Of a stretch of DNA of 45,751 nucleotides, positions 15,148-36,312 are shown piece by piece. Both the position numbers and the translations under genes were made by a program. This stretch comes from Deltaproteobacteria bacterium (GTDB lineage Bacteria > Desulfobacterota > Desulfomonilia > Desulfomonilales > Desulfomonilaceae), in contig JAMCYH010000009.1 in NCBI GenBank assembly GCA_023474025.1, positions 1-45,751 on the forward strand, given 5' to 3'. The notes beneath the pieces were generated by a model that did not search any database, was not told the origin of the DNA, and worked only from the letters and a program-made list of their open reading frames with translations. Each line of letters starts with the position of its first letter. The stretch's first letter is position 1.

Positions 15148-15227
15148 CAAAAAAATTGGCAACAACTGAGGCTTTTGATACAAATCAACAGGCTCAAGCG
15201 AAAGAGATTTGTATACGGGGCAATTTC

Positions 15228-17402
15228 ATGAGACAGATTCTCCAAAACCTGGGTGACGGTCGCGCAGAGCTGACAGAAGTTCCTGCTCCAAAAGTCAGAG
15301 CCGGTCATGTGCTAATCAGGACTGTGATGAGCCTCGTTTCGTCAGGAACCGAGCGAAGTGTTGTAGAGTTGGGTCAAGCCAGCCTGTTGCAAAAAGCCAG
15401 AAGGCAACCCGAAAAAGTCTTCCAGGTTTTGGGAAAAATTAAAAACGAAGGACTGCTCGAAACAATTGAAGCGGTCCGTGAAAAGCTCAATCATCCTATA
15501 ATAATGGGATACAGCAATGCCGGCATAGTAATTGAAAAAGGTATAGGGGTTGAGTCGTTCAATGTTGGGGATCGGGTCATTTCAAATGGTCCTCATGCCG
15601 ATCTAGTGCTGGTTCCGAAAAATTTGTGCGCCAAAATCCCTGAAGCAGTTTCAAACGAGCAGGCTGTCTTTACTGTGCTGGCGGCAATTGGTCTTCAGGG
15701 CATCCGTCTTGCAAATCCTACCTTAGGCGAAAATTTCGTGGTAACCGGACTAGGTTTAATTGGCCTTGCCGCAGCTCAAATTCTGATCGCTAACGGTTGC
15801 AGGGTTCTTGGAGTTGACCTGGACGCAAATAAAGTCGCAACGGCCCGAAGCCTCGGCATTCCAACTGTAAGCCTATCCGATGGAGAAGACCTAATAAGGG
15901 CGGCAAACACATTTTCAAACGGCTTTGGTGTAGACGGAGTCATCATTACCGCGGCTACAGAGAGTCACGAGCCGATAAAACAGGCTGCAAAAATATGTCG
16001 TAAACGTGGTCGGATAATATTGGTTGGAGTAACAGGTCTCAATCTTGATCGATCACTATTTTACGAGAAAGAACTTAGCTTTCAGGTTTCCTGTTCATAT
16101 GGACCAGGCCGGTATGATCCTGAATATGAAGATCGCGGCCATGATTATCCCTTCGGTTTTGTTAGATGGACCGAACAACGCAATTTTGAGGCCGCTTTGG
16201 CGCTTTTGGCCACGCAAAAACTTAACGTGAATCCTCTGATTTCCCATAGATTCAAATTTGAAGACGCTGTTGGGGCTTATGAGCTTTTAGCCAGCCCAGA
16301 GCCATCATTAGGGATACTTTTGACGTATGATCATGACGGAATCTTGCAAAGCGACCTCATCAGCCAAACCATCAAATTACCGAAAACAGCAGCCAAAGTC
16401 CCAGTTGTTAAAACGGGCCAGAAAGTTGGACAAATTGAGCCAGTCATTGGAGTTATAGGCGCAGGAAACTATGGATTGCGCACTTTTATTCCTGCTTTGA
16501 AATCGATTGGAGCGATGTTGAAGACTATTTCAACTTCTACAGCGGTGAGTGGAGCTTACGCCGGTAAGAAATTTGGCTTCAGCTTCGCTACCACAGATAC
16601 CTCTGGTCTTTTCAAAGATCCTGAAATCAACACCATTTTTGTTCTGACGCGGCACAACACCCATTCAAAATTAGTTTGCGAAGCCCTAAAAAATGGCAAG
16701 AGCGTTTACGTGGAGAAACCCCTTGCCATATTTCCTGATGAAGTGAAAATGGTTGAGGAAGCTTACAATGCGTCGCGGAATCATGACTTTTCCCCGATTG
16801 TCATGATAGGATTTAACAGGAGATTTTCTCCTCACCTCCTGAAAATCAAAGATCTTCTGAAAGGAGTCAAGGCCCCTTTGTCGATAATAATTACAGTGAA
16901 CGCCGGTGAAGTTCCTTCAGGTGACTGGACACAAGATCCGACGTTAGGGGGAGGCCGTATAATTGGGGAAGGATGCCACTTTGTAGATCTGTTATATTAT
17001 CTGACTGAGTCTCAGCCGGTTTCTGTATGTTCGACAAAAATTGGGGATGCCCCCGGGACTTTTGTCACTGATGACAAAATGAGTTTCACGATCAAATTTA
17101 AAAATGGGTCATTTGGAACGGTCCATTACCTGGCCAACGGCTCTAAGTCCTTTCCAAAAGAGAGAATTGAAATATTTTGTGAAGGACGAATTCTGCAACT
17201 GGACAATTTTCAAACCTTGAGAGGGTTCGATTGGCCGGGTTTCAGTAAAATGTCTCTGTGGAAACAAGACAAGGGACATAAGGAAGCCATCACAAGGTTC
17301 TTGAATTCTGTCAGGAAGTGTGAAGCGTCCCCGATTCCTTTTGAAGAAATCATTGATATCACCAACACGACTTTCGACATTGTAAGAGCTGCCTCCGAGT
17401 AA
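15228..17402 (+). CDS. Fused MDR-type dehydrogenase and Gfo/Idh/MocA oxidoreductase
   Basis: A 724-residue two-domain protein. Residues 1-370 form a medium-chain dehydrogenase/zinc-type alcohol dehydrogenase-like domain (GHVLIRTVMSLVSSGTERSVVELG, NGPHADLV, then the NAD-binding GLGLIGLAAAQIL). Catalytic zinc ligands are not conserved. Residues about 415-724 form a Gfo/Idh/MocA NAD(P)-dependent domain with VIGAGNYGLRTFIPAL, the VEKPLAI motif and GEGCHFVDLLYYL, whose His is the usual proton-transfer residue. The same fusion occurs in sugar and surface-polysaccharide clusters of other bacteria. The frame is open upstream to a TTG at 15156, but MRQILQNLGDGRAEL at 15228 is the usual N-terminus. No glycosyltransferase neighbours, so the substrate cannot be read from context. 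Confidence 0.88.
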   Translation: MRQILQNLGDGRAELTEVPAPKVRAGHVLIRTVMSLVSSGTERSVVELGQASLLQKARRQPEKVFQVLGKIKNEGLLETIEAVREKLNHPIIMGYSNAGIVIEKGIGVESFNVGDRVISNGPHADLVLVPKNLCAKIPEAVSNEQAVFTVLAAIGLQGIRLANPTLGENFVVTGLGLIGLAAAQILIANGCRVLGVDLDANKVATARSLGIPTVSLSDGEDLIRAANTFSNGFGVDGVIITAATESHEPIKQAAKICRKRGRIILVGVTGLNLDRSLFYEKELSFQVSCSYGPGRYDPEYEDRGHDYPFGFVRWTEQRNFEAALALLATQKLNVNPLISHRFKFEDAVGAYELLASPEPSLGILLTYDHDGILQSDLISQTIKLPKTAAKVPVVKTGQKVGQIEPVIGVIGAGNYGLRTFIPALKSIGAMLKTISTSTAVSGAYAGKKFGFSFATTDTSGLFKDPEINTIFVLTRHNTHSKLVCEALKNGKSVYVEKPLAIFPDEVKMVEEAYNASRNHDFSPIVMIGFNRRFSPHLLKIKDLLKGVKAPLSIIITVNAGEVPSGDWTQDPTLGGGRIIGEGCHFVDLLYYLTESQPVSVCSTKIGDAPGTFVTDDKMSFTIKFKNGSFGTVHYLANGSKSFPKERIEIFCEGRILQLDNFQTLRGFDWPGFSKMSLWKQDKGHKEAITRFLNSVRKCEASPIPFEEIIDITNTTFDIVRAASE

Positions 17403-17587: not shown

Positions 17588-20257
17588 ATGGCAAGAGTTT
17601 ATGATTATGATCTCATCGTCATAGGCGCGGGAATCGCCGGTTTCGTTTCGGCAGTAACCGCCAACGGCATCGGAAAGCGGGTCGCAGTAGCTGAAAAGCG
17701 TAAGGTAGGCGGGAATTGCACCAACTACACTTGTATTCCCAGCAAAGCGCTTATCAGACTCAGCCATTTAAACCGTGAAATGGATCATTTTAATCATCTC
17801 GGTTTATGGTCTGGTGCGGTTCCCCCAATTAATGGTCCAAATGTCATGGATCATATCAGGTCCGTGGTCCAACAGGCCTATGAAAAGGACCTTCCGGAAA
17901 CTTTTGAGCGCATCGGCATCAAAGTAATGTCAGGGGTTGCATCCTTCGTTGACACCCATTGTGTGAGAATCGATGGGAGGGTTTTTTCATCTGAAAAATT
18001 CATAATAGCCTCAGGAACTCAGCCCTTAATCCCCCCTATAAGCGGTCTTCAGGATATCGAGTTTTTAACAAACGAAAACCTTTACGAACTTCATGATTTG
18101 CCCAAGTCAATTGTCATACTTGGAGGAGGCGTAGATGGCCTGGAATACGCTTCCGCTTTTGGTCGGCTTGGTGTAGAAACCACTATCGTCGAAATGGGGA
18201 CCAGGCTGCTTCCCATGGCCGAGCGAGAGTTGATAAACGTTCTTACCAGGACACTGGAAGCTGACGGGATACGTATATTAAGTGGCGCAAAGGCAGTTAG
18301 CCTGAGCAACCGGCAGGACGGCATTAAACTTGTGTTCGAGCAGGGCGCCGGAAATCTTGGGGAAATCGAGGCTGCCAGGGTATTGGTAGCGATCGGCCGA
18401 AAACCTGATCTGGCTGATCTGATGCTCGAAAAGGCCGGTGTGAATTACTCCCCCAAGGGAATAATCACCAACAACAAACTTCAGACTTCGAACCCGAGGA
18501 TCTACGCGTGCGGTGACATAGTTGGACCTTACCAATTGGCATCCATGGCTGAATATCAGGGGATTATTGCGGCTACCAACGCTTTCTCGCCTTTTAAACA
18601 AAAAGTCGATTATCGGAACAATGTCTACGTCATATTCACTGAACCTCCAATAGCCTTTATAGGCCTTACCGAAGAACAGGCTCTGAAGAAATACGGTGTC
18701 GATCTCAAAGTATATCGTTTCAATTACTCGAACATGCGGCGGGCCTTGATAGACGGTCATCCAACAGGTCTGGCCAAGGTCCTCTGTGACCGTAGAGGAC
18801 GTATAGTGGGGGCCCATATAATTGGCGAATCCGCAGCCGAAGTAATACATGAAATTCAGATAATCAAGTCACTAAACACGCCTTTACATAAACTGCACTC
18901 TGTTACCCACGCATACCCGACATATGCTCAGGCGCTTGTCGGGAGGGCAGCGCAGTTATGTTACCTGGACAAAATGAGTAAATCCTGGTTTGTCAGTATC
19001 GGCCTGAAATTACTTCCAGGCTTCTCCAACCGGCTCAATCTTGCCAGAGATCGTTTAGCGGAAAAGGAACTTGCGCCTGTCAGCCCCAAAACCACAACAC
19101 TTGACAAGGTAACTCAATCAGGGTCCCAAACAGTAACGGAGTCGCTCTCAAAAGCCATAAGACACGGTCACATGGCTTGCGTGGCTGTCCTGCCAGAAGC
19201 TCTCATAGATTATAGTGAAGAAGCTCTTATGCTTGCTTGCGCGGGCACTGGATCGACAGAATCTCAATTAAGGGCGCTAGACTTCTCCAATGTCCAGACC
19301 ATTAATGGATTGGGGGCCTCAATGCTTGCAAAACTAAGCGCCAAGGCCAAAAGTGAAGGGAAAAGACTTACTGCTTTCGGACTGGATTCGGGGCTACGTG
19401 ACATTTTTGAGGTTACGCAACTTGACCAGGCTATTGAAATCTGCCCAAATCAGAAAGCAGCGTTAATAGCTGCCGGATTTAACGCAATACAGCAAAATCA
19501 TGATGACGATCAGAAAGTCTGCCGACCAAAAGTAGATACCAGATATTGGGCTACGGCTGTGAGCAGTTTAACTGTTCCTCCTATGCCCAGAGAACCAAGA
19601 AATCTTAATGTTGATGGGCTTCGCATAACAAGTCCTGTGAATGGATTCGGTCAGTTGTGGCAAAAGATTTACCGATTGTACATCAACGACCCAAAGATAA
19701 CTCCTGAGTACACGATCGAAGTCCTTAAACAAAATTTTCCCCAGCTCCAGCCGTCCTTCAATCGTTTCTATCCCTCACCCGCAGGTATCAAGCCCGGCGA
19801 AATAGTGCTAATAGATTCCATGACCCCAGGTGGTCCGGTTTCAACCGGTGTCATGATCCTGTACGCTGATGAACGTTCTTTTACTTTTTGCACTCCACAG
19901 GGCCATCCTGAAGCCGGTTGGGTGAGTTTTAGCGCTTCTAAATCAGATGGGGAGACCATTGTGCAAATCTATGGCCTTACCAGATCCAACGACCCTATTT
20001 TTGAAGCGGCGTTTCATCTTGTTGGCTCCAAAATCCAAATCCAAATATGGATGCATGTTCTTAAATCTCTCGCGGCCTATCTGGGCGTTCCTCCTGAAAT
20101 TACAACTGAGTCCAAATGTCTGGACACAAGAATGCAATGGGCACGTATTGGTAATATCCGGCACAACTCCCAAATAAGAACATTGATAAAGGAACCTTTG
20201 CGGTGGTTCCGTTTAGCGCAGGAATTCCTGAACCGCGACAGTCAGAATGAAGCGTGA
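17588..20257 (+). CDS. Flavin disulfide oxidoreductase-STAS-DUF1990 fusion protein
   Basis: An 889-residue protein with three parts. Residues 1-460 are a pyridine nucleotide-disulfide oxidoreductase of the Lpd/MerA type: FAD motif VIGAGIAG, redox cysteines C44 and C49 in GGNCTNYTC, NAD motif ILGGGVDGLEYA, and YACGDIVG. The usual catalytic HxHPTxxE is HAYPTYAQ, so the His base is Tyr. Residues about 515-625 are a STAS-like domain (LDFSNVQTINGLGASML, then FGLDSGLRDIFEVTQLDQAIEI). Residues about 655-840 match DUF1990, a domain of SRPBCC-like shape (GHPEAGWVSFSA, LTRSNDPIFE, and WMHVLKSLAAYLGV). I know of no protein with this order. It overlaps the next gene by 11 bp. No convincing ribosome-binding site precedes the ATG. 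Function unknown; cytoplasmic. Confidence 0.85.
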   Translation: MARVYDYDLIVIGAGIAGFVSAVTANGIGKRVAVAEKRKVGGNCTNYTCIPSKALIRLSHLNREMDHFNHLGLWSGAVPPINGPNVMDHIRSVVQQAYEKDLPETFERIGIKVMSGVASFVDTHCVRIDGRVFSSEKFIIASGTQPLIPPISGLQDIEFLTNENLYELHDLPKSIVILGGGVDGLEYASAFGRLGVETTIVEMGTRLLPMAERELINVLTRTLEADGIRILSGAKAVSLSNRQDGIKLVFEQGAGNLGEIEAARVLVAIGRKPDLADLMLEKAGVNYSPKGIITNNKLQTSNPRIYACGDIVGPYQLASMAEYQGIIAATNAFSPFKQKVDYRNNVYVIFTEPPIAFIGLTEEQALKKYGVDLKVYRFNYSNMRRALIDGHPTGLAKVLCDRRGRIVGAHIIGESAAEVIHEIQIIKSLNTPLHKLHSVTHAYPTYAQALVGRAAQLCYLDKMSKSWFVSIGLKLLPGFSNRLNLARDRLAEKELAPVSPKTTTLDKVTQSGSQTVTESLSKAIRHGHMACVAVLPEALIDYSEEALMLACAGTGSTESQLRALDFSNVQTINGLGASMLAKLSAKAKSEGKRLTAFGLDSGLRDIFEVTQLDQAIEICPNQKAALIAAGFNAIQQNHDDDQKVCRPKVDTRYWATAVSSLTVPPMPREPRNLNVDGLRITSPVNGFGQLWQKIYRLYINDPKITPEYTIEVLKQNFPQLQPSFNRFYPSPAGIKPGEIVLIDSMTPGGPVSTGVMILYADERSFTFCTPQGHPEAGWVSFSASKSDGETIVQIYGLTRSNDPIFEAAFHLVGSKIQIQIWMHVLKSLAAYLGVPPEITTESKCLDTRMQWARIGNIRHNSQIRTLIKEPLRWFRLAQEFLNRDSQNEA

Positions 20258-21674
20258 GGCGGAATTTTACGCCATAGTAGTAGGGTCAGGACCAAATGGC
20301 CTAGCGGCCGCAATAACCCTCGCCAGACAAAAACGACCGGTACTGTTGGTGGAGGCAAATCAGACCATAGGCGGTGGAACGCGCACCTGCGAGTTAACTC
20401 TTCCAGGTTTCAAGCACGATGTGTGTTCAGCGATTCATCCTCTAGCTTTGGCGTCACCTTTTTTCCGATCAATCGATCTTTCTCGCTACGGGCTCGAGTG
20501 GAAATATTCTCCTGTACCATTAGCTCATCCAATGGATGAAGAAGAAGCGATTCTACTCGATCGATCTGTTGAACATACAGCAGAAAACCTTGGTCCAGAC
20601 GCAGAAGCCTATCGAAAGACTATAGGTTATTGTATTCATAATTGGGACAGTCTGGTTAAAGAATTGTTAAAACCTTTGAGTTTGCCCCAGCGCCCTTTGA
20701 CCCTTATGAGATTCGGACTCTTGGCTATGCGTTCAGCGACCAATCTTGCTCGACATTTATTCAGGGGTAAAAGGGCCAGAGCCCTATTTGGAGGCAATGC
20801 GGCACATTCCATTCTTTCTTTGGATCATTGGTCCAGCGCTGCCTTTGGGCTGATGCTTCCTTCGCTGGGACACGCCGTAGGCTGGCCAATAGCCAAAGGA
20901 GGGTCTCAGAAGATTGCAGATGCGCTTGGATCTTATTTTGAATCATTGGGTGGAACTATCAGGGTGGGAACAAATATAACCTCAATTGATGATCTTCCCA
21001 AGGCCAAAGCAGTTCTCTTTGATGTAACCCCTAGACGCCTGGCGAGGATAGCAGGGCACAAATTCCCGGATTGCTATCGAAAAAGACTTGAGAAACATAA
21101 TTATGGACCTGGTGTATTTAAGGTGGATTGGGCATTAAGCGCGCCGGCGCCATGGTTGGATCCGGCCTGTCTAAAAGCGGCGACGCTACATATCGGTGGT
21201 ACATTGGAGGAAATCGCTACTGCTGAAAAAGAAGTTTGGCAAGGTATAGCCCCTGAAAAACCTTTTGTGTTTTTTGCTCAACCCAGCCTTTTTGATGATT
21301 CAAGAGCTCCAGAGGGTATGCATACCGCATGGGGTTACTGTCATGTTCCAAATGCCTGTGAAATTGACATGACCGATCGCGTCGAAGCGCAAATTGAGCG
21401 TTTTGCTCCAGGATTCCGGGACAAAATTATCGCCAGGCATGTAATGTTTCCAAGTGATATGGAGGCATACAACCCCAATTACATCGGCGGAGACATAATT
21501 GGAGGATCGCAAGGTTTTGCGAATCTTTTTATTCGGCCATTGGGTAGATGGCGCGCCTACACTACCGCAGCAAAAGGTATCTACATTTGCTCGTCATCCA
21601 TGCCACCCGGGGGGGGCGTGCACGGTATGTGCGGGCATCTTGCCGCGAAGCGTGTTCTGTGGGATATATTTTGA
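20247..21674 (+). CDS. Phytoene desaturase-like NAD(P)/FAD-dependent oxidoreductase
   Basis: A 475-residue flavoprotein. The N-terminus VVGSGPNGLAAAITLARQKRPVLLVEANQTIGGGTRT is the dinucleotide-binding motif of the CrtI/PYROXD2-like amine oxidase superfamily, and the C-terminal PPGGGVHGMCGHLAAKRVL is the second FAD contact typical of that group. The mid-region (SLGHAVGWPIAKGGSQKIADALGSYFESLGGTIRVGTNI) also fits. It might desaturate or isomerise an isoprenoid or fatty substrate; PYROXD2-like proteins have few defined reactions, so the substrate is unassigned. It begins inside the last codons of the preceding fusion gene (11-bp overlap), strongly suggesting translational coupling. A tspO remnant follows immediately. 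Confidence 0.88.
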   Translation: MKREAEFYAIVVGSGPNGLAAAITLARQKRPVLLVEANQTIGGGTRTCELTLPGFKHDVCSAIHPLALASPFFRSIDLSRYGLEWKYSPVPLAHPMDEEEAILLDRSVEHTAENLGPDAEAYRKTIGYCIHNWDSLVKELLKPLSLPQRPLTLMRFGLLAMRSATNLARHLFRGKRARALFGGNAAHSILSLDHWSSAAFGLMLPSLGHAVGWPIAKGGSQKIADALGSYFESLGGTIRVGTNITSIDDLPKAKAVLFDVTPRRLARIAGHKFPDCYRKRLEKHNYGPGVFKVDWALSAPAPWLDPACLKAATLHIGGTLEEIATAEKEVWQGIAPEKPFVFFAQPSLFDDSRAPEGMHTAWGYCHVPNACEIDMTDRVEAQIERFAPGFRDKIIARHVMFPSDMEAYNPNYIGGDIIGGSQGFANLFIRPLGRWRAYTTAAKGIYICSSSMPPGGGVHGMCGHLAAKRVLWDIF

Positions 21675-21957: not shown

Positions 21958-22860
21958 TTACAAAAGGTCCCTGAGTGCGTTTTCAATGTTTGTGAATTCA
22001 AACTGAGACCCATTATCTAAAAGCGCTTTGGGTAACGCTCTTTGACCTTCCAGGGTTACTGATCCGAACTCTCCAAGGATCAACCTGATCATGAATGCGG
22101 GGGCTGGCACAAACCATGGCCTTTTCAGGGCTTTCCCAATGGCTCGGGCAAGGTCAACATTCCTGACCGGGTTTGGAGCGACGCAGTTTACAGGCCCTTC
22201 TAAAGTTGATTTTTCTATGACGAACAATATCACTCGACACAAATCCGAAATATGGATCCACGGGAACCATTGTAAACCATTACCTAAGCGCCCTCCGACA
22301 AAATAGCGAAATGGTCGAAGCATTTCATTCAACGCTCCACCGTCTCTTCCCAAGACGATACCAAGCCTGGCAATTACTACTCTAACCCGTTTAAGTTTTG
22401 CTTTTTGGGCCTCAGCCTCCCAATCCTGGGCCAGCCTTGCCAGAAAATCGGAACCTGGAGGAGCGTCTTCGGATAATTCCTCGTCTCTGGTAAATCCGTA
22501 ATACCCGACCCCGGAGGCGTTGATCAACGTAACTCTCTGGCTATTTTGAAGTGGAATAGCGTCTACCACGTTCCGCGTTGTAAGGATCCTGCTATCTCGC
22601 AGCAATATCTTGTGATTTTCATCCCATCGTTTGTTTATTGAAACTCCGGCGAGGTTTATAATCACATCAAAGTTTTCCACTACCTGTTGCCAAAGTCCCG
22701 GTTTTGTCGTATCCGCTGCGATAAAATTTACCTGGCTATGGGAACCAGGCCCCTTTTTGGGACTGCGGGACATTACTGTAACCTCGTGCCCCTTATTGAC
22801 AAGAAGTTTCGTGAGATTAGATCCCACGAATCCACTTCCACCTGGTATCAGAATTTTCAT
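21958..22860 (-). CDS. TIGR01777/YfcH-type NAD-dependent epimerase
   Basis: A 300-residue extended short-chain dehydrogenase-like protein. Nucleotide-binding GGSGFVGSNLTKLL at the N-terminus, then NLAGVSINKRWDENHKILLRDSRI and NASGVGYYGF, where the YYG Tyr sits at the usual site, followed by WEAEAQKA (in place of the catalytic-lysine helix) and RLGIVLGRDGGAL are characteristic of the TIGR01777 family (YfcH; plant SULA homologue). The reaction is not established. The frame is open 9 codons upstream to 22887 but MKILIPGGSGF at 22860 is the normal start. It is convergent with the tspO remnant and divergent from the acyl-CoA synthetase gene. TIGR01777 genes are sometimes neighbours of tspO and DUF1990 genes in other phyla, from general knowledge. 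Confidence 0.9.
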   Translation of the reverse strand: MKILIPGGSGFVGSNLTKLLVNKGHEVTVMSRSPKKGPGSHSQVNFIAADTTKPGLWQQVVENFDVIINLAGVSINKRWDENHKILLRDSRILTTRNVVDAIPLQNSQRVTLINASGVGYYGFTRDEELSEDAPPGSDFLARLAQDWEAEAQKAKLKRVRVVIARLGIVLGRDGGALNEMLRPFRYFVGGRLGNGLQWFPWIHISDLCRVILFVIEKSTLEGPVNCVAPNPVRNVDLARAIGKALKRPWFVPAPAFMIRLILGEFGSVTLEGQRALPKALLDNGSQFEFTNIENALRDLL

Positions 22861-22908
22861 TACTGAACACCCGCATGCTGACTTCATAACAATATTGTAG
22901 ACACAATT

Positions 22909-24597: not shown

Positions 24598-26037
24598 CTA
24601 AGCCGGGTTTGGAACTATTTTCTGGATCAGCGCAATTAGTGAACTCGGATATATGCCTAGCCACACAAGAGCAATAGTTAACAGAACCAGTGCAAATCCT
24701 GCTGCAGCCATTCCTGTCATATCGGAGCCTGTAGCTTCAGAGTTCCCCAAGTCCTTCGAAAACATTACCGATATGATTCGAAGATAGTAGAAGAGCCCAA
24801 TTACACTACTTGCCACGAGTGAAACAACCAGTATCCACAAATGGGAATTTATGCCGGCCGCCATGACATAAAATTTGCCCACGAAACCTGCTGTCAGCGG
24901 GATTCCGGCTAGTGACAAAAGTGTCGCTGAAAAAACCCCTCCCAATAATGGTTGTTTCCAGAACATTCCCCTATAGGAATCAATCAGGTCAGGCTCGGCT
25001 TTGGACCCTGAGAGCGCCGTTATTGCGCCAAATGCGCCAAGAATGGTCACAAAGTAAGCGGCAAGATAATAAGTCACAGCACTGAAAGCCAGATTGCCGC
25101 TTGCAAGGAACGCCGTCAGCAAATACCCGAAATGGGCAATCGATGAATATGCCAGTATCCTTTTGACATAGTTTTGCAACAAGGCCAGCAGGTTTCCTCC
25201 AAACATCGAGGCTACGGCGATAACTGCAAATACGGTTAAAAGCGAATTGTTTGTATGGATACCGATTTTGGTAAAATAACGCAGCATCAGGGCAAAAACA
25301 GCCCCTTTGGATGCGGAAGCCAGGAAAGCCGTTATTGGAGCCGGAGCGCCTTGATAAACATCAGGTGTCCACATGTGGAACGGGACTAAAGACAACTTGA
25401 AACCTAGTCCCACTATAAGCAGCCCTAAACCTGGAAGCAGGAATCCAATGTGGCCTGAATCAAACATCGGAGCAATTCGAGCGAACTCCAATTGACCTGT
25501 ATCCGCATAAATTAGAGCAATTCCAAAAAGCAGAAAGGCGTCAGAAGTAGCAGCCAGTATCAAATACTTGATGCCGGCCTCCAGCCCTAAAGAATCCTCA
25601 GCTTTATACGCGATTAACGCATACAGGGATACACTTAATATTTCCAGGCCAAGGAAAAAAGAAACAAAATGATTGCTTGAGACAACTACCGATGACCCTA
25701 GTGTAGTAAGCAAAAGGAATACATAATACTCTTCTTTTCGGCTTTCTTTTTGCAATTCCAGGTAACGATAGGACAAAAGAGTGACCATTAAAGCTGCCAA
25801 CAAAATAAGCCCAACGAAGAAAATTGAATACCGATCCACAATAATCAGGGGCATCACATATTGGGGAGTTGATTTGTCTATAAATAATGTGGAAATCAGC
25901 GCCAATACCAGGCCCAACCCCGTCAATAGCGCGGTGGTTTGATGATTCCTGTAGAGCGAGATAACTATCAAATTCAATACTACAAATACAGAAACGATCA
26001 ACAACGGTAGGAGCGGTAATAATTCTTGGCCATTCAT
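24598..26037 (-). CDS. nuoN: NADH-quinone oxidoreductase subunit N
   Basis: A 479-residue antiporter-like membrane subunit of complex I with about 14 transmembrane helices. The proton-channel signatures are visible: the conserved glutamate in FLGLEILSVSLYALIAY, the lysine-containing GLGFKLSLVPFHMWTPDVYQGAPAPITAFLASASKGA segment, and VKRILAYSSIAHFGY. Last gene of the nuo operon, 5 bp after nuoM. About 47 bp separate its end from the convergent acyl-CoA synthetase and no clear terminator is visible there. Confidence 0.96.
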   Translation of the reverse strand: MNGQELLPLLPLLIVSVFVVLNLIVISLYRNHQTTALLTGLGLVLALISTLFIDKSTPQYVMPLIIVDRYSIFFVGLILLAALMVTLLSYRYLELQKESRKEEYYVFLLLTTLGSSVVVSSNHFVSFFLGLEILSVSLYALIAYKAEDSLGLEAGIKYLILAATSDAFLLFGIALIYADTGQLEFARIAPMFDSGHIGFLLPGLGLLIVGLGFKLSLVPFHMWTPDVYQGAPAPITAFLASASKGAVFALMLRYFTKIGIHTNNSLLTVFAVIAVASMFGGNLLALLQNYVKRILAYSSIAHFGYLLTAFLASGNLAFSAVTYYLAAYFVTILGAFGAITALSGSKAEPDLIDSYRGMFWKQPLLGGVFSATLLSLAGIPLTAGFVGKFYVMAAGINSHLWILVVSLVASSVIGLFYYLRIISVMFSKDLGNSEATGSDMTGMAAAGFALVLLTIALVWLGIYPSSLIALIQKIVPNPA

Positions 26038-26042
26038 CTCGT

Positions 26043-27596
26043 TTATCTATTCTTTGATCGTTTCAAATTTGCCAGGGTTTTAAAAGAAGCCAGCGAATAA
26101 TGCTTTTCTGTCAGTCTGATTCCGGATTTTTCCCTTATAAACTTTAACGAAGGTTTAGCGATATTCAGAGCTGCCTGAGGGAACAACCCCAGCCACAAGA
26201 TCATAAAGATCATTGATGACATAACCATAGCTTCCCTAGGCCAAAGGTCATGAATTATGCGGTTTTCATCCGAAGGACCGTAAAAAGCTCTGTTTACAAT
26301 CCTTAATGAATAAATTACGGCCATTACTATGCCTAAAGCAGCAGGAAGCGCCATTAACGGATAGGCTTGGTAAACACCAAGCAAGACTAAAAATTCTCCC
26401 ACAAAATTCCCCAATCCGGGAAGTCCGAGGGAAGCTAGAGCAAAAAAGAGCCCGATAGCGCCTATCCGTGGTATTGAGGTCCAGAGCCCACCCATAAAAT
26501 TGAGATCGCGCGTGCCCGTTCGTTCCTGAATCATTCCCACTAGAATGAACAGCGCTCCAGTGCTTATTCCATGACAAATCATCTGCATTACTGCGCCCTG
26601 CAAGGCCAGTTCATTCGATGCGAATATCCCCAAAAGCACGAAACCGAGGTGGCTAACACTCGAATAAGCGACCAACCTTTTCAGATCAGTCTGGGCAAAA
26701 GCCATCATTGCTCCGTATATTATCCCAACCACGCCCATAATCATTGCCGGTGTAGCCAAAAAATGTGTCACCATAGGGAATAAGGGTAGAACAAACCTGA
26801 TAAGTCCATAAGCCCCTGTTTTCAATAGCAAGCCGGCCAGAATTACACTACCCGCGGTCGGCGCTTCAGTGTGCGCATCAGGTAACCAAACGTGGAAAGG
26901 CACAGCAGGAAGCTTTACAGAAAAAGCGGCAAAAAAACCCAACATCATCAGCAGAGACGGCCATTCTGGAAGAGAAGTTCCCAAGAGTTCGAAATAATTA
27001 AAGGTATATACTCCGGTAATTTGTCCGTGACTGAAATAAAGGCCCAATATCGCCATCAGCATCAACAGGCCACCAGCCTGTGTGAATATGAAAAATTTTA
27101 CTGAAGCGTAGATCCTGTTTTCATGACCCCATATGCCAATCAAAAAATACATGGGGACTAACATGACTTCCCAAAACACGTAAAACAGGATCAGATCGGT
27201 AGCCAGAAAGACTCCCACAATACCCGCCAGACAGGCCATGAGATTAAAATGGAAAAAACCTATGCTCGTCCTTATTTCAGTCCAGGAACATAGAACAGCG
27301 GCGATCCCCAAAAAGGCAGTCAGGGCCACCATCAATAAACTCAAACCGTCCATGGCAAGACTGAAGCCAATTCCCAGTTGGGGAACCCATTTTAAATTCG
27401 TGGTGGCTAGCCACGTGGAGTATTCTCCAGGCGCAATTGGATTTGAATGGCCAAGCCACAACACGGCAAGTATGGCAATTTCCAAACCAAGTGCGGCCAA
27501 TGAGATCCAACGTGGCCACAAGTCGCTATAGCGAGCCGAGGTCCAGGCTGCGATACCGGCGAGCAAAGGGATTATGATTAGCCAAATCAAAGTCAT
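26043..27596 (-). CDS. nuoM: NADH-quinone oxidoreductase subunit M
   Basis: A 517-residue antiporter-like subunit. Channel residues in FYVFWEVMLVPMYFLIGIWG (glutamate), FAAFSVKLPAVPFHVWLPDAHTEAPTAGSVILAGLLLKTGAYG, and LKRLVAYSSVSHLGFVLLG are intact. It has a 30-residue C-terminal charged tail, slightly longer than usual. The start overlaps the nuoL stop by 4 bp (ATGA type), so translation is coupled. Confidence 0.96.
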   Translation of the reverse strand: MTLIWLIIIPLLAGIAAWTSARYSDLWPRWISLAALGLEIAILAVLWLGHSNPIAPGEYSTWLATTNLKWVPQLGIGFSLAMDGLSLLMVALTAFLGIAAVLCSWTEIRTSIGFFHFNLMACLAGIVGVFLATDLILFYVFWEVMLVPMYFLIGIWGHENRIYASVKFFIFTQAGGLLMLMAILGLYFSHGQITGVYTFNYFELLGTSLPEWPSLLMMLGFFAAFSVKLPAVPFHVWLPDAHTEAPTAGSVILAGLLLKTGAYGLIRFVLPLFPMVTHFLATPAMIMGVVGIIYGAMMAFAQTDLKRLVAYSSVSHLGFVLLGIFASNELALQGAVMQMICHGISTGALFILVGMIQERTGTRDLNFMGGLWTSIPRIGAIGLFFALASLGLPGLGNFVGEFLVLLGVYQAYPLMALPAALGIVMAVIYSLRIVNRAFYGPSDENRIIHDLWPREAMVMSSMIFMILWLGLFPQAALNIAKPSLKFIREKSGIRLTEKHYSLASFKTLANLKRSKNR

Positions 27597-29485
27597 AGCC
27601 AGGTTAGTAACCCTACCACCAATATTGCGCCAATAGCGATCCCGCAGGCGTATTGTCTGAGTTTTCCGGTTTGGGTAAGACTTAACACACGGTGAACGAG
27701 CTGAACTAGCAGTGCGACAAGTCTGTAAAAACTATCCACAAAATCTGCCTTATTAAGGGTCGTGATCCAAATAAAGGGTTCAATTAACAACTTGTTATAA
27801 ACCAGATCAAATCCCCAACCTGAGCGCCAAAAATTGCGTAGTCCTGAAACAAATGGAAATTCAGAGAATTTTTCAAAATAATCCGATTTCCTCAAATACA
27901 AGAGATAACAAATTGGCGCTCCGGCAATGCAAACAATCGAAGCAACAATTTCGAGAACCAATTCATCGTTAAAATTAGACCCATTTCCACTGAAAGCCGG
28001 CAAAGCGGTGTTCAGGAAATTAGAGAACAAATGTATATTGCCAAAATTACTTGGCAATTCAATGAATCCTACTACAATAGACAAGATCGCTAGCGTTATC
28101 AGAGGAATACGAATTGAAATCCTGGGTTTTCGTTCCAGTGGAGTTCTTGGGGAACCAAAACAGGAAATAAAAACCATTCGAAAAGTATAAAGCGACGTCA
28201 GAAACGCTCCGAAAACTCCACCTGCCCAAATCCATGGGCCTCCTGTAGTCGATGACCACACATCCCATAAAATCAAGTCCTTGCTGTAAAAACCGTCCGT
28301 AACCAGAGGTAGCGCAGCCAGTGATGAAGCTCCGATTAGGAATGTCCAAAACGTAACAGGCAACTGTTTACGAATCCCTCCAAGCTTGAACATATCCTGT
28401 TGATGGCCCGCGGCAAGTATGATCGAACCTGCGCCCAGGAAAAGCAAGGCCTTGAAAAACGCATGTGTAACGAAATGGAAAATCGCGGCTGACCATGCTC
28501 CGACCCCTAGCGCCAGAAACATGTAGCCGATTTGACTTATCGTTGAATAAGCGAGTACCCTTTTAATATCAGTCTGGACCAGGGCGCTAAATCCAGAGAG
28601 TATTAATGTAGTTAATCCGATTATCGCGATGGCGAATTGAACTGCCGGGGCAAGAGAAAACAACGCATTCATTCTTGCTATAAGATAAACACCGGCCGTA
28701 ACCATAGTAGCGGCATGAATTAATGCGCTCACGGGCGTAGGACCAGCCATTGCGTCCGGTAACCAGGTTTGGAGTGGAAGTTGGGCGGATTTGCCCAGAG
28801 CGCCGCCCAGAAGTAGAACTGCGGCAAGTGTTGGCAGCGTTGATCCCACGGCCCAATGTTGAGTCGCTCTGACTGCCAATTCCTGAATTTGCAGTGTCCC
28901 GAGCGTATTGAACAAAACAAACAGGCCAATCGCCATTGCCGTGTCGCCTACACGTGTCATCACAAAGGCTTTTGTCGCAGCCCTAACATTTGAAGGTTCC
29001 TTGTACCAGAAACCAATTAATAGGAAACTGCATAGCCCTACACCCTCCCAACCAAGGTAAAGCATCAGCAGGTTATCTGCTAGAGCAAGAATTAGCATGG
29101 AAGCCACAAATAGGTTCATGTATGCGAAAAAACGACCAAAGCCTTCATCATCAGCCATATATCCAATGGAATACAGGTGAATCAAAAAACCAACTATAGT
29201 AACCACAAGAATCATGCATATAGAAAGAGCGTCTAAATAGAGTCCGAATGTCGGGGCAAAATTACCGATAGTGATCCAGTGCCAGAGGGTTCTGTTGAAG
29301 TGATAATCGGCAGGTGGATTCGTGATGAAGTAAACGGCTATGACTAAACTAATAGCGGCGGCAACCCCTACAGATCCTACCCCTACAACGGATTGGATAC
29401 CGCGGGACAGTCTTGATCCAGCTAGAACTAAAGTTAAAAAACCCAGAATGGGTAAAGCCGGAACCAGCCATAATAGATCGAACAT
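27593..29485 (-). CDS. nuoL: NADH-quinone oxidoreductase subunit L
   Basis: A 630-residue antiporter-like subunit at the far end of the membrane arm. Conserved LYLGWEGVGLCSFLLIGFWY, LLLGGALGKSAQLPLQTWLPDAMAGPTPVSALIHAATMVTAGVYLIAR and the KRVLAYSTISQIGYMFLALG segment are present, with a C-terminal lateral helix region (about residues 540-605) after an extra membrane segment. Normal length. It begins 1 bp after the nuoK stop. Confidence 0.97.
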   Translation of the reverse strand: MFDLLWLVPALPILGFLTLVLAGSRLSRGIQSVVGVGSVGVAAAISLVIAVYFITNPPADYHFNRTLWHWITIGNFAPTFGLYLDALSICMILVVTIVGFLIHLYSIGYMADDEGFGRFFAYMNLFVASMLILALADNLLMLYLGWEGVGLCSFLLIGFWYKEPSNVRAATKAFVMTRVGDTAMAIGLFVLFNTLGTLQIQELAVRATQHWAVGSTLPTLAAVLLLGGALGKSAQLPLQTWLPDAMAGPTPVSALIHAATMVTAGVYLIARMNALFSLAPAVQFAIAIIGLTTLILSGFSALVQTDIKRVLAYSTISQIGYMFLALGVGAWSAAIFHFVTHAFFKALLFLGAGSIILAAGHQQDMFKLGGIRKQLPVTFWTFLIGASSLAALPLVTDGFYSKDLILWDVWSSTTGGPWIWAGGVFGAFLTSLYTFRMVFISCFGSPRTPLERKPRISIRIPLITLAILSIVVGFIELPSNFGNIHLFSNFLNTALPAFSGNGSNFNDELVLEIVASIVCIAGAPICYLLYLRKSDYFEKFSEFPFVSGLRNFWRSGWGFDLVYNKLLIEPFIWITTLNKADFVDSFYRLVALLVQLVHRVLSLTQTGKLRQYACGIAIGAILVVGLLTWL

Positions 29486-29486
29486 A

Positions 29487-29798
29487 CTAGCCCTGGACCT
29501 TTCTTGCCTCGTCTGTATCCAATGTTTTGAATTGGCGATAAAATTGTAATGCCAACGCTAGTCCAACTGCAACTTCAGCCGCAGCGGCCGAGAGGATAAA
29601 AATGAACATTACCTGTCCGTCTATTTGTCCCCATCGGGAACCACTTGCGACGAAAGCTAACCCTGTAGCGTTAAGCATTATTTCAACGGACATGAGCATA
29701 AAAATGAGGTTTCGCCTCGCAAGTACTCCTATAAGGCCTAAGCCGAAAAGAACAGCAGCGGTAATCAATACATGTTCCAACGGGACATTCACGGTCAC
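29487..29798 (-). CDS. nuoK: NADH-quinone oxidoreductase subunit K
   Basis: A 103-residue three-helix membrane subunit. The two conserved glutamates are present in [16 protein letters not shown] and [16 protein letters not shown]. The GTG start overlaps the nuoJ stop by 4 bp (GTGA). Confidence 0.96.
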
Positions 29799-30340
29799 TC
29801 TTTGTCACCCCTCTTTGAAGATGAATCAAGTAACCGTCTGGAACCAATATGATAAGCGCCTACCAAACCAGCTAAAAGTAACATCGACGCAAGTTCAACG
29901 CCAATTGCATATGGTCCGAAAAGCGCCATACCAATTTGTTTTGGAGCAATTTCGGCAGGAGATGAAATCGGGGAACTCCCCGAGTAGGCCATTAAATAAA
30001 TGATTTCCAAAATCAGGATGCCTGAAAGCACAGATGGTCCAAGCCACGAACGAGGCTGTAACAAAACGCCTTCCTGTTTTGTTGATTTCGAACCCAGGTT
30101 GAGCATCATTATCACGAACACAAAGAGCACCATTATTGCGCCAGCGTAAATGATTATTTCAAGGGCAGCCACAAATGGAGCCCCTAAAACAAAAAAGATA
30201 ACAGCTACCGAAAAAAAGGACACTATCAAATATAATAAAGCATGTACCGCATTCAGACGTGTAACTACCATTAACGTAGCCAGAATACCAATAATAGCGG
30301 ATAAATAAAAAACGCCATTCATATTAATGTCCTTAACCAC
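29795..30340 (-). CDS. nuoJ: NADH-quinone oxidoreductase subunit J
   Basis: A 181-residue membrane subunit with five hydrophobic helices. It has the family's [26 protein letters not shown] and [20 protein letters not shown] (with the conserved Tyr-Ala-Gly-Ala pi-bulge region). The hydrophilic C-terminal tail is rich in Arg/Ser. Separated from nuoI by 6 bp; overlaps nuoK by 4 bp. Confidence 0.95.
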
Positions 30341-30346
30341 AATTTT

Positions 30347-30862
30347 TCACGGCTTCAAACTGTAAATGTCTACAGGAAGGCTCTCATTTTCCGATTCACC
30401 CTTACCTTTTCCACCAATGGAAATTCCAGCCACTCTGTAAAAATTGTAGTCATGATATTTCCCTGGGCCGTTGATCAATAAGTGCTCTTTTTCATAGACA
30501 AAATTGGGACGATAATATTCACTCATCTCAAAATCATTGGTTAGCTGTATGGCATAAGTGGGACACGCTTCTTCACAAAAGCCACAAAAGATGCAACGCG
30601 AAAAATTAATACGGAAAAATGCTGGGTATCTTCGCCCATGCTCGTCCTGGGTAGCCTGCAAAGCAATGCAGTCAACCGGACACGCCGCCGCGCAAAGATA
30701 ACACGCCACACAGCGCTCCTGCCCATCGGGATCTCTTGACAGAATTATCCGGCCTCTCCATCTGGGCGGTCGGTTCGGTTTTTCTTCCGGAAAAAGAACT
30801 GTTTCCCGCTTTCTGAAAGAGTGCTTGAATACAGTCCAGATTCCTTTTAACAAGTCAAGCAT
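30347..30862 (-). CDS. nuoI: NADH-quinone oxidoreductase subunit I
   Basis: A 171-residue peripheral subunit carrying clusters N6a and N6b. Two CxxCxxCxxxC motifs: C51, C54, C57, C61 ([15 protein letters not shown]) and C90, C93, C96, C100 ([14 protein letters not shown]). The N-terminal amphipathic segment fits docking to the membrane arm. Twelve bases separate it from nuoH. Confidence 0.96.
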
Positions 30863-30874
30863 TGTAAACCCTAA

Positions 30875-31828
30875 TCAATTTATCGCAATCGCAACAGCGC
30901 CTGTCACCACTATATTAAGCAGCGCCAGAGGGAGCATTAACTTCCAGCCAAATGAGATCAACTGGTCATATCGCAGTCGAGGGAGTGTAGCTCTAATAAG
31001 TATGAAAAAGCATATGAAGACAAAAGTCTTGATTATCATCCAAAGAGGGGGTGGAAGCAAAGGCCCCATCCAGCCGCCAAAGAAAAGAGTTGCTATCAGG
31101 GCGCTGATGAGAGTGACACCCATATATTCACCTACGAAAAACATTCCGAATTTCATTCCCGAATATTCGGTGTGATACCCTGCTACAAGTTCATTCTCGG
31201 CTTCAGGAAGATCAAAAGGTATTCGCCTTGTTTCTGCCAGACCGGCGATCAAGAATATAAGGAAACCAGGAAATTGCGGTATGAAAAACCACATCTTCCT
31301 CTGAGCGTTCACGATGTCGCTAAGATTGAATGATCCTGCAAGTATAATCACCCCGGTCAATGACAACCCCATAAATACTTCGTAACCGAGCATCTGAGCT
31401 GCGGCTCTTAAACCGCCAAGTAATGAATATTTGTTATCGGAAGCCCAACCAGCCAGAGCAACGCTATATACGCTTAATGATGACATGGCGAGGAAAAACA
31501 GCAATCCAATATTCAGGTTAGCTATCTGGATTCCCGGTCCAAAAGGAATGATTGCAAAGGATAGAATGGTTGTCACGACTATAATCGATGGCGCAATTAT
31601 AAATACGGGTTTGTCAGCGAAAGGTGGAATCCAGTCCTCTTTTGTAAAGATTTTTATCATGTCTGCCACCACCTGCAGACTCCCGAACGGGCCAGCTCGA
31701 TTGGGACCGTAACGATCCTGCCACAATCCGAGCAACCGTCTTTCCAGCCAGATCAAACCAGCGGCTGTGGCAAGCACGCCTACAAAAATAGCTGCCAAAA
31801 CTATGATCGATCGGATAGGTTCACCCAT
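30875..31828 (-). CDS. nuoH: NADH-quinone oxidoreductase subunit H
   Basis: A 317-residue membrane subunit that forms part of the quinone site. Signature segments include [45 protein letters not shown], the acidic loop [25 protein letters not shown] and [12 protein letters not shown]. The frame is open 15 codons upstream, but the ATG at 31828 (MGEPIRSII) gives the proper N-terminus and overlaps the nuoG stop by 8 bp. Confidence 0.96.
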
Positions 31829-34550
31829 TTGAGTTTTCCACAATTCTGGCCCATGCGGGTAACTCGATACCATCGAGGTTTGAAATTCCTACGGGTAAGG
31901 CTATTACCCCTCTCGGCAACGAGTTAATAATATGCGCCGGCAGGTTCAGCAAAACATTATCAATTACTAGGCTTACCTTTTCACCTTCTTTTTTGTCTAA
32001 CAAGTCAGCGTCCTGAGAGCTGATTCCTACATATGGTTTAGGAGCCCTTTCGGAGATCGATGCTCCAAATCTACTCAACTCTTCAGAACCAAAAATATGA
32101 AATTTTGGAAGCGCTAGCCATTCTTTGTCTCTATGTCCGTTAGCCTCGGGGATGTCACTAAAATAATTCCACTTGTTACCAGTTGATGGCTCTATTAAAC
32201 GTTTGCCAGGATCGCCTCCGAGAAGAGGACCGTTAATTTCACTTTGAAACTTGTTAACAGATTGGCCTGAATTCCATCCCGGCGCCCAGAATCGTTGAAT
32301 CAGGGACGATGGAGGAATCCCCGGGTAACCCTCCATAGAAAAGGATAACGGTGATTCACTATCATCCGGCGGTTTTGGTTCGTGAACACTTATGTTGGCG
32401 GACATCGAAGTCCGTCCGCTGAATCGATGGGATTGACGCGGAATTTTCTGTCCTATTGCACGGAATTGGGAAGACGGCGCCAATTCGAGAAGAGGTTTGA
32501 AGATAGAAAACTCTCGGGTGATAGATTCACATATACTGTCAATATTGAGTAAATGATCTGTAGCGTCGGGTTTGACGGTTTTAATTATCTCCAGAATCCA
32601 GTTGTGGCTCTCCAGGATTTCACCTGTTTCCGGCATTGCACGGTATAATCGTTGAACCCGGCCCTCACTGTTGACAAAAGATCCTGTTGTTTCAGCAAAC
32701 GTCCCGCAGGGAAAAACCACTTCAGCTTTTTGAATGGTTTTGCTGAACAGGTGGTCAATAACGATGGTGTGTTTACATTTTCGGAGAATGGACTCAACCA
32801 TCTCTGCAGGAGCCCTTCGATAAAGGTCGTTTTCCAGAATGACCAATGTGTCAACCGAATCGCTATTTACTTTTTCGAAGCATTCCCTGAGGCTGCCGCC
32901 GCCCATCAACCCAAGACCCAAACTATTACATTCGGGAACTGTGTAAAACAAACCGGCCTTTTCCCCTTTATCGGATAATGCCCAAGCTACGTTGGCCGCG
33001 GCGTTAATTACCGAAAGAGTCCCCGAACCGGTCCCGGACACAACTAACGGCATAGACGCCTGTTTAAGCGCCGCCGCAATTCTAATCGCCAATTCCTTCA
33101 GATTAGGCTGTAAATCAGCAACCTCAGGCGCTTCGTGATTTATTTCGTGAGCAACCTGGAATCCAAATCTGGCAATATCATTCGGATCAATACGTAATGT
33201 CTCGGTGGCAATGTCGTCAAGTTTTGTAGCAAAAGGGCTCAAAATGAACAAAGGCCCCTTTTTAGATTGAACCGCCTGTCGGACCGCTGCGTCAGCCCAC
33301 CTGGGAATCTTGAGTCTGTCAGCTATTTCCATAGATTTTTGCCGAACTGACTGCCGTAAAGACAATGCCAACCGTGGAGCTGAATTGGTAACATCCTCTC
33401 CAAGAATCAAAACCGCGTCACATAATTCGACCTCTCGGAGCGATGGCGAGTGCACTGGTCCACTGCGCAGAACTTGAATAATCCTGGAGATCATTTTGGA
33501 TTCAGGCTCGGACATTCCCAAGTAAAAATTTTCAGGCCCTACCAATGACCTCAATGAAAAATTGGCTTCCAGCGTAGCCCGAGGGGAGCCCAAGCCGATG
33601 ATACCTTTGCTGGATCGCCATATTTTGGCCAAATGTTCTAGAACTTCAGTTTCCTGAACTGGTTGATTAGAATTCTTTGAGTTATTAGAACTATCTCGAA
33701 TGATAGGTTGCAGCACACGATTGGAGCCATTGACAAACTCATATCCAAAACGACCACGATCACATAGAAAATAACCGTTTACCTCATGATTGTATCTATT
33801 AAGTATCCTGCGAACCGAGCCATATCTTTCACCAACGATCGTGTTGCACCCGAGCCCGCAGTGAGGACAAACTGAAGGCGCAGTCTGTAAATCCCACTTT
33901 CGGGTATAATGTTTTCTAAGGGTTTTGTCCGTGAAGACGCCAGTCGGGCAAACTTCAACCAGATTTCCGCTGAATTCGTTTTCAAGTGTTCCGTCAGCGC
34001 ACCTACCAAAATAGATTCTCTCATGCGCCCCGAAAACATTAAAATCTCTTCCGCCGCAATAGTCTCTGTAAAATCTGACACATCTGTAACACTGAATGCA
34101 GCGGTTCATCTCGTGGTTGATGAATGGTCCTAAATTCTGGTTTAGATATGTCCGCTTCTTGAAACGATATCTACGATAAACATGTCCCGACATTACAGTC
34201 ATGTCTTGGAGATGACATTCCCCACCCTCATCACATACCGGGCAATCGTGAGGATGATTAATCATGAGAAATTCGATTACGCCTGCCCGAAACTCCCGGA
34301 CGTCATCATCCTCAATTGAAATTCTTGTTCCATCGGTAGCAGGAGTCATGCACGACATGACGATTGAACCACGGGTGTCGTTCTCATCCCGAAATTGCTT
34401 TACGGCGCACATCCGGCACGCGCCCACTGCGTGCATAGCGGGATGCCAGCAAAAATAAGGGATATTGAAACCCAGGGAAAGACATGCGCTAAGAAGATTT
34501 TGTCCGTCTTGAACCTGGTAGGGAATATTATCTATAAAAATTGTGGCCAT
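31821..34550 (-). CDS. nuoG: NADH-quinone oxidoreductase subunit G
   Basis: A 909-residue iron-sulfur subunit of the NADH-oxidising arm, of the large E. coli/Thermus type. Clusters: [2Fe-2S] N1b from C34, C45, C48, C67; N5 from H99, C103, C106, C112; N4 from C151, C154, C157 plus a later Cys; and N7 from CPHCGLGCN near residues 228-236 with a partner Cys in FLCDRGR. A molybdopterin-oxidoreductase fold follows (about 280-640) without evident cofactor residues. The C-terminal 200 residues are variable. The same architecture is shared with formate dehydrogenase alpha subunits, but the position between nuoF and nuoH settles the identity. Confidence 0.96.
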
Positions 34551-34553
34551 CCC

Positions 34554-35828
34554 TTATCTCCACGGACACCGCTTATCTCTGATGTGTGTATCAAAGTCTT
34601 CCCTGAAAAATTTTAATGCGCTTCGCAGGGGCTCCATTGCGCCAGGAGCTAATGCGCAAAAAGTTCTACCAGGACCGAGCGCTCGTATGTGAAATTCAAG
34701 TATCTCAATATCGCCGGGTTCGCCTTTTCCCTCTTCAATCGCTTTGAGGATCTTGGCTGTCCAAGGCAATCCCTCCCGGCATGGAGTACACCATCCACAC
34801 GATTCTCTCGCAAAAAAACTCTCCAGATTGTGAACCATTCCTACTGGACATGTATGGTCGTCCAACACGATCATCGTGCCTGTGCCAAAACGGCTCCCTG
34901 CCTTTTGAACCGAATCGTAATCCATCGGAACGTCCAAATGTTGTTCCACGAGGAAATCTGTAGAAGCTCCACCTGGAAGTGTTCCACGAAATTTTAATCC
35001 GTCTAGCATGCCTCCGGCATGTTCTTCGAGGATTTCCCTGATGGTTGTTCCCATAGGAAGCTCCCAGGCCCCGGGCTTCTTAACTTTTCCGCTAACACCA
35101 AAGATTTTCGTCCCGCCATCTTTACATTTGCTCAGATTCTTGAACCATACTGCGCCATTATTAATGATGTGGGGTATGTTACAAAGGGTTTCAACATTGT
35201 TTAGCAGTGTAGGCATGCCCCAAAGGCCTGACTCTGTCTGGCGTGGAACCTTGTGCCGTGGAACAGCCCGATTACCTTCAATAGAATTGGCCAGCGCAGT
35301 CCCCTCGCCACAGATATATCTGCCCGAACTAACGTGTAGCCTAAGTTCAAAATTAAAGCCCGATCCCAAAATGTTGAATCCTAGATAACCTTTTTCATAC
35401 GCTTCCTCGATAGCCTTTTTGATACGTTTAGCGGCTAGAGTATATTCAGATCGTATAAAGATGTAACCAATTTCAGTATCCACTGAGTAAGCGGAGATTA
35501 TCAGTCCCTCAATCAGTTGATGAGGGTTTCCTTCCATCAATATACGATCTTTAAATGCTCCTGGTTCCATTTCGTCCGCATCAGCTATCAGATATCGAGG
35601 TCTGGGACTGTTTTGTAAGGAGGGCATGGAACACCATTTAAGGCCGGTTGGGAAACCAGCGCCGCCTCTCCCCCTAAGGTTCGAATCTTTCACCAGTTGC
35701 AAAATATTGTCAGGGGTCAGAGTCCTGAGAGATTTTCGGCAGGCTTCATAACCACCGACTTTCTCATATTCGGACAGGTTAAGTGGGCCTCCGCCAATTG
35801 TAATGTGTTTAGTTAGAGGTCGCTCCAT
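34554..35828 (-). CDS. nuoF: NADH-quinone oxidoreductase subunit F
   Basis: A 424-residue flavoprotein that binds FMN, NADH and cluster N3. The FMN/NADH glycine-rich segment is LRGRGGAGFPTGLKW (about 51-65), and YICGEGTALANSIEG and ESCGWCTPCREG (N3 cysteines near residue 342) with a further Cys in FCALAPGA follow. In place of the usual GEETAL the sequence has GEGTAL, so the first Glu of EE is changed to Gly; that Glu is implicated in setting FMN/NADH reactivity, so it may alter the flavin site. Three bases separate it from nuoG. Confidence 0.95.
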   Translation of the reverse strand: MERPLTKHITIGGGPLNLSEYEKVGGYEACRKSLRTLTPDNILQLVKDSNLRGRGGAGFPTGLKWCSMPSLQNSPRPRYLIADADEMEPGAFKDRILMEGNPHQLIEGLIISAYSVDTEIGYIFIRSEYTLAAKRIKKAIEEAYEKGYLGFNILGSGFNFELRLHVSSGRYICGEGTALANSIEGNRAVPRHKVPRQTESGLWGMPTLLNNVETLCNIPHIINNGAVWFKNLSKCKDGGTKIFGVSGKVKKPGAWELPMGTTIREILEEHAGGMLDGLKFRGTLPGGASTDFLVEQHLDVPMDYDSVQKAGSRFGTGTMIVLDDHTCPVGMVHNLESFFARESCGWCTPCREGLPWTAKILKAIEEGKGEPGDIEILEFHIRALGPGRTFCALAPGAMEPLRSALKFFREDFDTHIRDKRCPWR

Positions 35829-35839
35829 TTATAGATTCT

Positions 35840-36304: not shown

Positions 36305-36312
36305 TATTGATA

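Follow-up and report, generated by a model that had tools for sequence, protein, structure and literature searches.

What might a flavin disulfide reductase, a STAS domain and a DUF1990-like domain do within a single polypeptide? The question is raised by an open reading frame at positions 17588–20257 (+ strand) of the window, the 45,751-nucleotide stretch of DNA analyzed here. An earlier note had described the encoded protein as a reductase joined to the other two domains in an order not seen in any described protein, and had proposed redox control of a process involving a lipid or hydrophobic ligand. The domain order was borne out by the ORF, by Pfam matches in the protein and its relatives and by structure modeling; every part belongs to a known family, and the order was not found described in the literature searched. 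The conserved unit extends beyond this protein and includes an overlapping CrtI-like gene at 20247–21674. Genomes and loci are designated below by G and L numbers.

Anatomy of the fusion protein

The ORF is intact, begins with ATG and encodes 889 amino acids. Since the fused frame was intact, or cut by a contig end alone, in nine other genomes, it is not an assembly artifact. The ORF call, Pfam, the homologues and the model confirmed a real ORF encoding one chain of three modules, reductase, STAS and SRPBCC. Along the + strand these are arranged as follows: (i) a reductase module with an FAD/NAD(H) disulfide-reductase fold, residues 1–455 (17588–18952), delimited by Pfam and a PDB fold match, (ii) a linker (18953–19132), delimited by conservation and predicted structure, in which residues 456–493 are conserved and helical and residues 494–518 are predicted to be disordered in the full-length model, (iii) a STAS domain at about residues 516–630 (19133–19477), identified by Pfam in relatives and by the model, with the motif MNGLG/INGLG, and (iv) an SRPBCC/START-type, DUF1990-like domain at residues 652–889 (19541–20254; core 689–834), placed by an AF2 model and fold comparison. 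The structure prediction suggested by the earlier note yielded the domain folds but not their packing, the full-length model (pLDDT 84.8, pTM 0.53) being untrustworthy as to relative domain placement. Promoter and terminator matches were no more frequent than expected by chance.

The reductase module

Pfam identified Pyr_redox_2 at residues 7–325 (4e-53) and Pyr_redox_dim at 348–451 (2e-25), and the module matched a PDB fold with an E value of 9e-44. By Pfam, fold and alignment, the module has the features of a class I flavoprotein disulfide reductase, namely both of the dinucleotide-binding sites claimed earlier, a CX4C motif and a dimerization domain. The redox pair C44/C49 (17717–17734, +) lies where it had been reported and is invariant in the ten fused homologues. 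Following the second Rossmann strand, E202 (VEMGTR; 18191–18193, +) occupies a position that is acidic in all ten fused proteins in the alignment, which suggests that the reductase prefers NADH over NADPH.

The motif HAYPTYAQ, correctly noted before at residues 441–448 (18908–18931, +), places Tyr443 and Gln448 where Lpd has its His/Glu dyad. The alignment revealed that the HxHPTxxE dyad is gone from all ten fused homologues, nine of which have HAYPTYAQ and one (G285) HAYPTYTQ, so that lipoamide oxidation is unlikely, as had been argued. The accompanying comparison with MerA was right about the loss of the dyad and wrong about MerA itself: the module scored 349 bits with NCBIfam TIGR02053 (MerA; cut-off 454), no adjacent Cys pair of the C-terminal MerA type occurs anywhere among the Cys positions of the chain, and the reductase tree separated it from MerA. 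The score with TIGR01350 (dihydrolipoamide dehydrogenase) was likewise below cut-off (360.9 versus 408.8 bits). Identification as Lpd, MerA or Gor was dropped because the curated cut-offs and the catalytic motifs both failed. Loss of the His/Glu dyad also occurs in quinone- or metal-active flavin reductases.

In the reductase tree, in which several reference sequences sit on long branches, the fused copies group with a free reductase of Ilyobacter in a clade (99/97 as a whole) that includes TVP38/DedA-fused and free YPT-type reductases, apart from E. coli Lpd, Gor, SthA and RclA and from two plasmid MerA proteins. By this placement the module belongs to the DedA/TVP38-associated lineage. COG0398 DedA proteins are fused most often to the combination of PF07992 and PF02852 (PMC10127716). 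Pfam detected no DedA membrane domain (PF09335) in the fusion protein.

The STAS and SRPBCC domains

In the window protein the STAS_2 match (residues 564–613, 1e-4) was below cut-off, as was the copy's score with PF01740. All 18 C-terminal homologues matched STAS (best 3.6e-9) and 17 of the 18 matched STAS_2 (best 4e-13). Several relatives, the fused homologues G353 and G285 (31.1 and 34.5 bits) among them, exceeded the PF01740 gathering score of 22.6 bits; clear matches in the relatives thus settle the weak call in the window. The DSSGLG motif of SpoIIAA is replaced by INGLG or MNGLG in the alignment. The phospho-acceptor position (Ser58 of SpoIIAA) is Gly574 in all fused proteins and Ile, Val, Gly or Pro in nearly all unfused ones, with Ser in one. 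The missing Ser argues against partner switching by phosphorylation (the earlier note had named partner switching as a usual role of STAS domains), and we therefore read the STAS domain as a putative docking domain rather than a phospho-switch.

The earlier note had called for domain searches; Pfam, which found STAS by way of the relatives, left the DUF1990 label borderline. The window protein matched DUF1990 at residues 728–808 (E 0.089), and 17 of the 18 C-terminal homologues matched it as well (best 1.3e-7). Against the PF09348 gathering threshold of 23 bits, the window copy scored 13.3–14.8 and G026 24.3, the other relatives scoring 18.8–22.8 or giving no match; the most distant members had no DUF1990 match at E<0.01. 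The label thus holds to the extent that relatives match the family, and fails in that the window copy and most members are below its cut-off, and the domain may be better named a distinct DUF1990-like SRPBCC family. The predicted SRPBCC-like shape stood up well. An AF2 model of the domain (pLDDT 92.8) displayed an SRPBCC/Bet v 1 fold, Foldseek retrieved SRPBCC, Bet v 1 and START proteins (E 9e-6), and comparison with an SRPBCC/START fold in VIA aligned 138 residues at a Z score of 12.0, an rmsd of 2.9 and 10% identity. PDB sequences searched with a profile of the C-terminal part gave insignificant matches only. The model accordingly has the helix-grip fold of the SRPBCC/START/Bet v 1 superfamily, predicted to be of the hydrophobic-pocket type. 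Within this domain, nearly every member, whether fused or not, has a cysteine at the position of C844 (20117–20119).

The CrtI/CrtO-like partner gene

The gene downstream encodes a CrtI/CrtO-like FAD oxidoreductase of 475 amino acids on the + strand, as evidenced by the ORF call, Pfam, NCBIfam and locus comparison, and its start overlaps the fusion stop by 11 nt. A CrtI-like gene lies directly downstream on the same strand in 26 of 26 loci with enough contig, its distance from the STAS-SRPBCC gene being mostly −4 to +31 nt; loci inside one family are not independent of each other. Among 42 genomes of the class, 21 have both genes, 17 neither, three the STAS-SRPBCC gene only (at contig ends) and one the CrtI-like gene only (Fisher p 9e-8, ignoring kinship). 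The sole exception on an uncut contig is G022 (L151:4635-6080), where the CrtI-like gene occurs without STAS-SRPBCC and a GDSL-type gene lies upstream. In two unfused genomes, G311 and G099, the CrtI-like gene is followed immediately by one for a free flavoprotein of the Pyr_redox_2 family (374–390 amino acids), which parallels the fused reductase. CrtI-like copies of about 40–53% identity were found on plasmids of Deinococcus, Actinomycetota and Gemmatimonadota; a plasmid-collection search for STAS-DUF1990 relatives of the STAS-SRPBCC protein gave no match.

CrtO and CrtI are the curated models closest to the partner, which might thus make a carotenoid, as a desaturase or ketolase whose FAD is recycled by the fusion. 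We regard this as very improbable: the partner falls far below both cut-offs, scoring about 110 bits with CrtO (cut-off 1000), and phytoene/squalene synthase (SQS_PSY) is absent from 17 of 18 genomes, the window's included, some of these genomes being incomplete. Since the synthase is missing from all but one of the genomes checked, carotenoid formation by the partner is unlikely.

Distribution and origin of the fusion

Twenty-four of the 42 genomes in this small class carry a C-terminal homologue, as do 19 of 395 sampled across the phylum. In family f1 they are always reductase-fused where the contig permits a check (G000, G002, G004, G005, G008, G012, G014 and G015); G003 and G006 hold contig-end fragments of the fusion, and G010 is without it. 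Family f2 has stand-alone proteins of about 340–380 amino acids with STAS at the start. The fusion recurs in two further families (G353 and G285) and is thus kept in at least ten genomes and three families of one phylum, the searches having been made within the phylum; to that extent the earlier call for its taxonomic distribution is answered. A contig search with the whole protein retrieved one close relative (L033) and two reductase-only matches. Apparent STAS-DUF1990-CrtI triple fusions in G277 and G335 were rejected as ORF-caller artifacts, the two parts being in different frames, and a 1398-aa frame in G014 was a match-table value later shown as 913.

The fused clade received support of 100/100 in the reductase tree and 98/98 in the C-terminal-domain tree. 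Since the fused proteins lie on one side of one branch in both trees, one fusion event is sufficient. STAS-SRPBCC and CrtI-like make up the ancestral pair, which the reductase joined once. Wherever dS was computable, each of the three parts had a dN far smaller than dS; STAS and the linker evolve fastest.

Gene neighborhood

A convergent neighbor at 21958–22887 (−) encodes an SDR39U1/TIGR01777-type epimerase with DUF1731 (Pfam), which is found near the pair in three families. Naive binomial p values, which are too small because of kinship, were 2e-6 for the DUF1731 SDR (close to the pair in 4 of 14 genomes), 5e-10 for DUF1365 (within about 5 kb in five of the nine genomes having it) and 7e-9 for a photolyase-like gene (within 7 kb in four of six genomes). 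The photolyase probe was PF00875, FAD_binding_7 (PF03441) being too insensitive for this photolyase type. From whole-genome positions, clustering with all three is beyond chance.

DUF1365 (UfaO)-CMAS (UfaM) neighbors belong to unfused relatives, and PPDK_N/PEP-utilizer, Chalcone_3, UfaD-like amine oxidase, lipocalin and pyrimidine-dimer glycosylase genes likewise lie mostly near unfused copies. The fused genomes have no DUF1365 and no photolyase; the context carried into them consists of the DUF1731 SDR (G000, G002) and of lipocalin and TudS-DUF1722 (G353). TudS (2-thiouracil desulfurase)-DUF1722 proteins are repeated neighbors of the pair (L117, L057, L114), and PNPOx-type split-barrel flavin proteins are near it at 17 loci, four of them fused (upstream in G008, G014 and G285; nearby in G353). 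The known UfaO reaction requires O2, in contrast to which the lineage of the DUF1365-CMAS relatives is probably anaerobic. UfaM, UfaD and UfaO, the last of which carries DUF1365, make furan fatty acids in Rhodobacter, and the reductant of UfaO is unknown (PMC7380195). By domain type, the neighbors may be orthologues of UfaD and UfaM.

Several further gene arrangements were observed. DUF1365 (UfaO-like) and CMAS (UfaM-like) are combined in one protein at L045:11886-13892, L055 (from 11934 on), L042 (from 8681 on), L044 (from 12403 on) and L047 (from 1711 on); in at least two of these loci it adjoins a UfaD-like amine oxidase. In two genomes the gene immediately upstream of the fusion, absent in the window, encodes a B12-binding radical SAM protein (L059:2425-3864, −; L037 from 8611 on, −). 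Its nearest curated models are BchE, HpnJ and HpnR, and it is below the cut-off of each. Upstream of the window's fusion gene, 15156–17402 (+) encodes a 748-aa protein that joins a zinc-type alcohol dehydrogenase to a GFO/IDH/MocA dehydrogenase and is conserved in that place in G004, G005 and G006. A complex I (nuo) cluster occupies 24598–38716 (−), and within it a 592-aa ORF at 36313–38091 looks like a NuoC-NuoD fusion.

Proposed function

Our preferred reading, to which we assign a probability of roughly 0.38, is that the fusion forms part of a two-component lipid oxidoreductase acting in membrane (photo)oxidative stress, as the subunit that donates electrons and carries the substrate. NADH would reduce the FAD and CX4C of the reductase module, from which electrons would pass to the CrtI-like flavoenzyme, taken here to lack an NAD(H) site. 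The SRPBCC pocket would present a hydrophobic substrate, an acyl chain or polyprenyl lipid rather than a carotenoid; STAS would dock the fusion and the CrtI-like protein together; and the system would help to maintain the membrane when oxidants or light stress it. In favor of this reading are the pair geometry, the co-occurrence, the single origin, the trans reductase of G311 and G099, the SRPBCC fold, the lipid and stress neighbors of unfused relatives, the DedA-type kinship of the reductase, the lack of SQS_PSY in 17 of 18 genomes, the acidic NADH residue and the lost His/Glu dyad. The earlier guess of a hydrophobic ligand gains support from the fold and from lipid-gene neighborhoods. Three observations speak against this reading: a conserved CX4C is unnecessary for simple flavin-to-flavin transfer, the lipid and photolyase neighbors sit with unfused relatives, and G022 has retained the CrtI-like gene but not STAS-SRPBCC. 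We consider it rather unlikely that the locus encodes a new NADH-powered two-component system that saturates, desaturates or repairs oxidized membrane lipids in anaerobes, with a lipid-transfer domain delivering substrate between flavoenzymes.

Alternatively, the reductase may act on a small substrate of its own (a quinone, a metal ion or a low-molecular-weight disulfide), with the other domains only tethering it to the membrane or a partner. Its sisters are free or DedA-fused and it shares the loss of the dyad with flavin reductases active on quinones or metals, but the strict CrtI-like pairing and the single fusion to that pair are left unexplained, and we hold this possibility to be somewhat unlikely. 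A redox-switched lipid sensor or carrier, in which the thiol/FAD state of the reductase alters lipid binding by SRPBCC and STAS relays the signal, would make sense of the invariant CX4C of all fused proteins, of the near-invariance of Cys844 even in unfused ones and of STAS domains being classical interaction modules. It is nevertheless quite unlikely, given a STAS without phospho-acceptor Ser, a steadily co-encoded partner that is an enzyme and not a regulator, and a full NADH site; the context is better accounted for if the fusion supplies electrons to the partner flavoenzyme than by redox control. That the fusion is neutral or accidental, without functional coupling, might be argued from its containing known domains only and from the rapid evolution of STAS and the linker, and is scarcely credible for a protein retained in ten genomes across three families, with dN far below dS where dS was computable and the partner always attached.

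Under the two-component reading, the fusion suggests which protein may supply electrons to the CrtI-like enzyme. The reductant of UfaO is a similar question, though the fused genomes are without UfaO. What DUF1990-like domains and non-carotenoid COG1233 oxidoreductases do becomes testable. Neither the conserved STAS-SRPBCC/CrtI-like module of uncharacterized genes in one phylum nor its tie to furan-fatty-acid and photolyase genes was found in the literature searched.

Comparison with known systems

With the class I enzymes Lpd and MerA the fusion has in common the fold, the FAD and NAD sites and the redox Cys pair, whereas it lacks the His/Glu dyad and the C-terminal Cys pair and is below both cut-offs. 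The partner gene belongs to the same superfamily as the CrtI/CrtO-like COG1233 FAD oxidoreductases; it differs in that 17 of the 18 genomes checked have no phytoene/squalene synthase. The STAS domain has the sequence profile and predicted beta-alpha pattern of SpoIIAA, MlaB and SulP; here, however, it is SRPBCC-fused, and the phospho-acceptor Ser is replaced by Gly (fused) or mostly by other non-acceptors (unfused). The last domain appears to share its helix-grip fold with DUF1990 (PF09348; plant Oep23) and SRPBCC/START proteins, and some members are near or above the DUF1990 cut-off, but the similarity is distant, most members are below that cut-off, and the family is STAS-joined. The closest likeness in the reductase part is to the DedA/TVP38 (COG0398)-Pyr_redox proteins and free reductases, with which it shares CX4C, the YPT motif and, by tree placement, its lineage. 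Being fused to a lipid-related domain is a further likeness to the DedA/TVP38 proteins. The Glu kept by most of that lineage is Gln in the fusion, and STAS and SRPBCC take the place of the DedA membrane domain.
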